A stretch of DNA of 64,000 nt from Planctomycetia bacterium. Its GTDB lineage: Bacteria > Planctomycetota > Planctomycetia > Gemmatales > Gemmataceae. Of the stretch, positions 40,151-40,769 are shown piece after piece (positions within the stretch are counted from its first letter, which is position 1; every line of letters begins with the position of its first letter). Position numbers and translations under genes: made by a program. The DNA is taken from NCBI GenBank assembly GCA_005786805.1, contig SYCV01000066.1, positions 62,001 to 126,000 of the forward strand, given 5' to 3'. The notes under the pieces were generated by a model. That model saw only the letters and a list, made by a program, of their open reading frames with translations. It had not been told where the DNA came from and did no database searches.

Positions 40151-40178
40151 GGAACTTTTTACAGTGAATTGCGTCTAA
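40151..40178 (+). promoter_or_regulatory. sigma-E/ECF-type promoter of the ECF sigma gene
   Basis: GGAACTT (40151-40157), a 16-bp spacer, then TCTAA (40174-40178). This matches the group-2/RpoE-type ECF promoter pattern of GGAACTT and TCTRA with 16-bp spacing. Predicted start of transcription is about 40184, some 10 nt before the GTG start codon. It suggests the sigma factor activates its own operon. Confidence 0.65.
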
Positions 40179-40193
40179 TTTTTTAGGGTTAAT

Positions 40194-40769
40194 GTGAATT
40201 CCTTAGATGATAAAACTCTGATTCGGCTTGTGCTGGAAGGGAATATTTCGGCTTTTGATGTCATTGTAAGGCGTTATAATACAAGGGTTTATAATCTGGC
40301 GTATAGGTTGTTGAATTGTGTTGAAGATGCAGAGGATGTTTCTCAGGAAACCTTCTCGCAGGCTTACAAAGGTTTGTCAAACTTTAGGGGGAACTCCAAG
40401 TTTTATACTTGGTTATTTCGAATTACTTACAATCTTGCAATAAGTCAAAGACGAAAACGAAAGCCAGCGCTTTCATTGAACAGTCAGACTGATAGCCAGG
40501 GAGAAATTTGTTTACCTTCCGATGATGCTGGTCCGATGAAGCACATCGAGGAGGAAGAGGGTAGGTCATTGATGGATAAAGCCCTTGGGTTGTTATCCTT
40601 GGATCATAGGGCTGGGTTGGTACTAAAAGAGATTGAAGGTTTTTCCTATGAAGAAATCGCAGCTTCGTTGGGAGTGCCGGTTGGGACTGTTAGAAGTCGA
40701 CTGCACAGGGCCAGACTTGAGTTAAGGGCGATTTTGGAAAAACTGGGCAATGAAAGAGATGACTTATGA
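40194..40769 (+). CDS. ECF RNA polymerase sigma factor (RpoE-like)
   Basis: 191 aa, GTG start with AGGG a few bases upstream. Region 2: 'LEGNISAFDVIVRRYNTRVY', 'EDAEDVSQETFSQAYKGLSN' and 'FYTWLFRITYNLAISQRRKR'. Region 4: 'LSLDHRAGLVLKEIEGFSYE' and 'EIAASLGVPVGTVRSRLHRA', the -35-binding helix-turn-helix. It is coupled by a 4-bp ATGA overlap to the anti-sigma gene and lies behind a matching ECF promoter. Close to the RpoE/SigW-like group by sequence, which targets GGAAC-type -35 boxes. Confidence 0.94.
   Translation: MNSLDDKTLIRLVLEGNISAFDVIVRRYNTRVYNLAYRLLNCVEDAEDVSQETFSQAYKGLSNFRGNSKFYTWLFRITYNLAISQRRKRKPALSLNSQTDSQGEICLPSDDAGPMKHIEEEEGRSLMDKALGLLSLDHRAGLVLKEIEGFSYEEIAASLGVPVGTVRSRLHRARLELRAILEKLGNERDDL

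Follow-up and report, generated by a model that had tools for sequence, protein, structure and literature searches.

A conserved, predicted autoregulatory promoter ahead of an RpoE/SigW-like ECF sigma/anti-sigma operon in planctomycetes

The window, which is the whole 64-kb stretch of DNA analyzed here, contains a sigma factor gene that starts with GTG and an anti-sigma gene whose start overlaps the sigma stop codon (ATGA), and two promoter-like boxes lie immediately ahead of the pair (Table 1). The sigma factor consists of Sigma70_r2 (PF04542, residues 24–90) and r4_2 (PF08281, residues 127–177), that is, sigma-70 regions 2 and 4 with regions 1.2 and 3 absent, which places it among the ECF (group IV) factors. 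It scores 101 bits against TIGR02937 (cut-off 42.9), its closest solved structures are AlgU/RpoE/SigW-type factors, and its region 4 retains the AlgU recognition segment (PVGTVRSRLHRAR vs PVGTVRSRIFRAR). The cut-offs of the equivalog models are not reached: the score is 137.2 bits against the RpoE model TIGR02939 (cut-off 236.15), and 127.7 and 140.3 bits against the SigW models TIGR02948 (cut-off 243.1) and NF007223 (cut-off 209), respectively.

The anti-sigma protein has one transmembrane segment, with a hydropathy peak of 1.88 at residue 94, between its N- and C-terminal domains. Searched alone, it gave no Pfam match, its long C-terminal domain included. The family profile of the N-terminal domain matched the solved structures of RsiW (E 4.6e-6), RseA (E 5.2e-5) and MucA (E 0.031), and among 24 family members RseA_N is matched in 7 and zf-HC2 in 18. 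The related N-terminal domain and the single transmembrane segment make this an RseA/RsiW-type membrane anti-sigma factor, and by homology the sigma factor would be released by regulated proteolysis of its partner. The original prediction had proposed an ECF factor, an anti-sigma partner and a planctomycete origin of the operon, all of which are supported. Divergent from the sigma gene is a 2312-aa ORF in which two complete UvrA units are fused head to tail, with UvrA_inter and UvrA_DNA-bind each occurring twice, and an 806-aa VIT and von Willebrand A domain protein is encoded downstream of the operon.

Table 1. Features of the locus and coordinates of loci mentioned in the text
Feature	Position	Strand	Basis
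-35 element GGAACTT	40151-40157	+	sequence; class-wide conservation in orthologs
-10 element CGTCTAA	40172-40178	+	sequence; CGTC-N-A-A conserved; numbering after PMC6411747
Predicted mRNA leader TAGGGTTAAT, 10 nt	40184-40193	+	ECF promoter numbering; +1 at 40184 ±1 inferred
ECF sigma factor gene, 191 aa, GTG start	40194-40769	+	Pfam, TIGR02937, solved relatives
Anti-sigma factor gene, 437 aa	40766-42079	+	ORF, hydropathy, N-terminal family profile
ORF with fused UvrA units, 2312 aa	32993-39931	-	
VIT/von Willebrand A protein gene, 806 aa	43082-45502	+	
Caspase-domain locus	L368:3123-5462	-	
Caspase-domain locus	L295:3185-5488	-	
Further caspase-domain loci	L299, L371, L375, L378		
RpoD-like sigma locus	L297:515-2071	+	
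Further RpoD-like sigma loci	L262, L263		

The stretch from 40151 to 40178 reads GGAACTTTTTACAGTGAATTGCGTCTAA, and the predicted arrangement of GGAACTT-N16-TCTAA shortly before the GTG of an ECF sigma gene can be read from it directly: the spacer is 16 nt, and a gap of 15 nt separates TCTAA from the start codon. TCTAA (40174–40178) is itself the end of CGTCTAA, within an extended -10 element GCGTCTAA (40171–40178) whose conserved portion is the CGTC that had not been singled out before. In the numbering taken from the M. tuberculosis SigH open complex (PMC6411747), G-11, T-10 and C-9 correspond to 40173–40175. The promoter thus reads GGAAC-N16-CGTC, with the AAC in the -35 and the CGT in the -10 that mark the own promoter of an ECF factor, and both are kept in orthologs. 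The 64-kb window contains a single match to GGAACTT-N15..18-TCTRA, where dinucleotide shuffles predict 0.08; the chance of such a match in one given 50-nt single-strand stretch is ∼3e-5, and GGAACYTT-N13/14-CGTC has a single occurrence in the entire 3.9-Mb assembly.

We searched 99 relatives for the sigma protein, kept the best match per genome and compared the upstream regions of 88 loci, ranging from genus to class. The original prediction had staked itself on conservation upstream of orthologs, and 71 of the 88 loci across the class indeed carry GGAAC-N16/17-CGTC at most 45 nt from the sigma start. The background in the same loci is 0.003 per 50-nt stretch for each locus, and 0.28 occurrences are expected over all 88. 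The six other genomes of the genus, whose sigma orthologs are 86–88% identical, retain the two boxes with their spacing as well as the GTG, and farther upstream their sequences diverge. The distance from the element to the sigma start is nearly fixed across genus, family, order and class. About 7 of the 17 loci without the strict motif in this interval have a one- or two-base variant, or the strict motif slightly farther away or at a mis-set start; the other ∼10 orthologs, several of them from one family (f6), have no recognizable site. An AT-rich upstream region could hold sigma-70-type promoters, and one might suppose that the boxes resemble an ECF promoter by chance while a housekeeping promoter farther upstream drives the operon. 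With the element at the same place in 71 loci against 0.28 expected in total, we regard this account as extremely improbable; judged from the aligned loci, conservation already refutes chance as the origin of the motif, and a housekeeping promoter may act upstream of the operon in addition.

The element is also specific to this group of sigma genes. The strict motif was found upstream of none of 14 paralogous planctomycete ECF genes (3 from the genus and 11 from other genomes) and at 1 of 73 non-planctomycete ECF loci, and a paralogous ECF gene of the genus carries its own, different AAC/CGT element (GAACCTTTTGC...CGTAGAA). The element is most naturally taken to accompany this sigma lineage because it is this sigma factor that reads it. 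Planctomycete genomes hold several ECF factors each, and ECF promoter boxes are often common to paralogs, an example being SigM/SigW/SigX of B. subtilis (as cited in PMC6767563); the same boxes may therefore also be read by other ECF factors in these cells, and the promoter could be a real one that is mainly read by another of them. Against such cross-regulation, which we consider unlikely, stand the class-wide association of the element with this sigma lineage, its absence from all 14 paralogous genes and the different element of the genus paralog. Conservation in orthologs and absence at paralogs thus argue for the positive autoregulation that the original prediction had proposed, and the assignment of the site as an autoregulatory promoter of the sigma gene appears well supported.

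A consensus built from 65 strict sites, with the six sister genomes left out, reads g-GGAAC-T(73%)-T(64%)-N-CGTC-N-A(63%)-A(92%), in which GGAAC and CGTC are invariant by construction since both were required in the search. The conserved element overall is gGGAACTT-N14/15-CGTC-N-A-A. The two boxes originally described are present at the site, but the conserved -10 is of the CGTC-N-A-A type and not TCTAA. SigH-type numbering (PMC6411747) places +1 at 9 nt past the final C of CGTC, at ∼40184. The leader predicted in this way is 10 nt long, in line with the short leader of about 10 nt first proposed, and over the 69 loci across the class that start with ATG or GTG its median predicted length is 9 nt. 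In 14 of the 69 it would be 0–4 nt, making these transcripts effectively leaderless. The start codon is GTG in 58/69 loci, and a Shine-Dalgarno-like run is seen in only 26/69. Since GTG and its distance from the element are both conserved, what is conserved could in principle be an element acting in translation or at the RNA level near the start codon, with no promoter involved. The conserved blocks, however, are two ECF boxes set at a rigid distance of 16–17 nt by a spacer whose sequence varies, the leader lacks conservation from one genus to another, and the scarcity of Shine-Dalgarno-like runs points the same way, so that we give this alternative very little credence. The genus paralog of the ECF gene (L397, L398, L399) has its own conserved element GAACCTTTTGCACAGCAGCAGCGTAGAA close upstream of a GTG, and given this arrangement short leaders may be a shared feature of ECF genes here.

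The regulon scans were pattern searches. GGAACTT-N16-TCTAA had been offered as a ready motif for finding the regulon, and it proved a poor probe: with spacers of N15..18 it gives 5 matches genome-wide against 6 in the reversed control. In the absence of any excess, the literal pattern was dropped for CGTC-N-A-A. The looser GGAAC-N15..18-CGTC has 36 matches in the window's own genome (the 302 matches of its reversed control stem from that control's composition and did not serve as the expected number). Nearly all of the 30 examined lie inside ORFs, and the autopromoter is the only intergenic site among them just before a real gene. GGAAC-N16/17-CGTC-N-R-A matches 3–7 times in each of the seven genus genomes, and besides the autopromoter only one such site recurs in all seven. 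GGAAC-N16/17-CGTC-N-A-A is the better regulon motif, and even so the predicted regulon is small. One recurrent match in the genus, GGAACTATGGCGCACCGACACCGTCCAA (L177, L184, L187, L197), was rejected as lying inside a conserved coding region. Recurrent family targets with caspase-domain, DUF1501, PSCyt2/PSD1 and RpoD-like sigma genes were left unassigned to this sigma factor, as these boxes may also be recognized by paralogous ECFs. Caspase-domain (Peptidase_C14) genes repeatedly begin 11–47 nt past a strict GGAACTT-N14/15-CGTC-N-A-A in family genomes and are a possible further ECF target. In one genus, two genomes also carry a strict ECF motif ∼185 nt upstream of a sigma gene of the primary (RpoD-like) type.

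The site common to the seven genus genomes falls in an operon of the order MotA/ExbB, ExbD, ExbD, a ∼400 aa membrane protein and a squalene-cyclase-like membrane protein. It is located in the 3′ end of the ∼400-codon gene, and a ∼606-codon gene whose product weakly resembles squalene cyclases lies 113–121 nt downstream. GGAAC and CGTCTAA show no variation among the aligned sequences, in contrast to the spacer and flanks; the window's own genome retains CGTC despite differing codons beneath it. We scanned 95 family genomes for the strict motif and clustered the genes downstream of the matches. The largest cluster is the ∼400 aa gene and the second is the squalene-cyclase-like gene. In 18 family genomes from six genera the site stands directly before the ∼400 aa gene and ends ∼17–28 nt before its ATG, often with GGAGG in between, a close spacing similar to that at the sigma gene. 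Some genomes have a site ahead of exbB, and at least three apparently have one before exbB and another before the ∼400 aa gene (Pfam identifies exbB in one of these; in the rest it was recognized by its size and position). A conserved GGAACTAAT...TGTCAAA stands before exbB in four other genomes of the genus; at this place the window's own genome shows CGTCAAA and a degenerate -35 (CGACT instead of GGAACT). Looser sites in 20 further operon regions number 9 in the sense and 1 in the antisense orientation. The refined motif therefore points to one conserved predicted target, the ExbB-ExbD-ExbD-∼400 aa-squalene-cyclase-like operon. That this particular sigma factor reads the operon sites is our inference, since other ECFs may share the boxes.

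Taking these observations together, we consider it highly probable that the site is the autoregulatory promoter of the sigma/anti-sigma operon, and the same holoenzyme is predicted to read the envelope operon as well. This explanation draws on the observed sequence, its conservation and position, its specificity for the sigma lineage, the homology of the anti-sigma factor and the recurrence of the motif at the operon. An envelope signal would free the ECF sigma factor from its membrane anti-sigma, and sigma-RNA polymerase would bind GGAACTT and GCGTCTAA, presumably acting directly at its own promoter. Transcription would begin ∼10 nt ahead of the GTG, and more sigma would be made together with more anti-sigma through the overlapping ATGA junction, so that the loop would amplify and then reset. 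The same holoenzyme would read similar promoters at the ExbB/ExbD/ExbD envelope operon. Counting against this explanation are the ∼10 orthologs without a site, the degenerate exbB-proximal site in the window's own genome and the overlap of the conserved genus site with the 3′ end of a coding gene. A broader proposal, which we put forward tentatively and with some doubt, is that throughout the class the sigma factor is a dedicated regulator of the ExbB-ExbD-ExbD/squalene-cyclase-like operon and that the minimal or absent leader and the GTG represent weak initiation, conserved as part of a feedback that keeps sigma at or below its coupled anti-sigma.

What began as one promoter look-alike has become a predicted autoregulatory element that is conserved throughout the class and has a defined consensus, and a planctomycete ECF sigma factor gains a concrete target that can be tested, an uncharacterized ExbB/ExbD envelope operon. 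A literature search, with most subscription papers outside its reach, turned up no planctomycete ECF factor of this type whose regulon or start site had been mapped, and nothing direct was found on planctomycete ECF promoters, leaderless transcripts or ExbD/squalene operons.

The locus is well supported as an RpoE/SigW-like autoregulated ECF system with an RseA/RsiW-type anti-sigma factor. E. coli RpoE/RseA and Pseudomonas AlgU/MucA likewise have an ECF sigma factor with regions 2 and 4, a GGAACTT-type -35, a TCTAA-type -10, an autoregulated operon and a membrane anti-sigma with a related N-terminal domain. The factor described here differs from RpoE in falling below the equivalog cut-off (137 of 236 bits) and in its class consensus of CGTC-N-A-A; compared with the RpoE/AlgU systems its leader is ∼10 nt or less and its predicted target is the ExbB/ExbD operon, and the anti-sigma differs from RseA/MucA in its long C-terminal domain without a Pfam match. 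Bacillus SigW is the second-best NCBIfam match of the sigma factor (140 bits), and RsiW is the best solved match of the anti-sigma profile. The SigW -10 motif is CGTA, whereas the -10 here is CGTC, and the sigma factor lies below both SigW cut-offs (209 and 243 bits). E. coli RpoE, which is of the same type, reads GGAACTT; AAC/CGT boxes, a co-transcribed anti-sigma and autoregulation are the standard ECF pattern, and autoregulation is stated for ∼55% of ECFs (PMC8103513). The basic design of the promoter is thus already well known: boxes, spacing and co-transcribed anti-sigma are as in autoregulated ECF promoters in general, and only the details are lineage-specific. Less ordinary are the predicted class-wide minimal leader with its GTG start and the putative conserved link to the ExbB/ExbD envelope operon.
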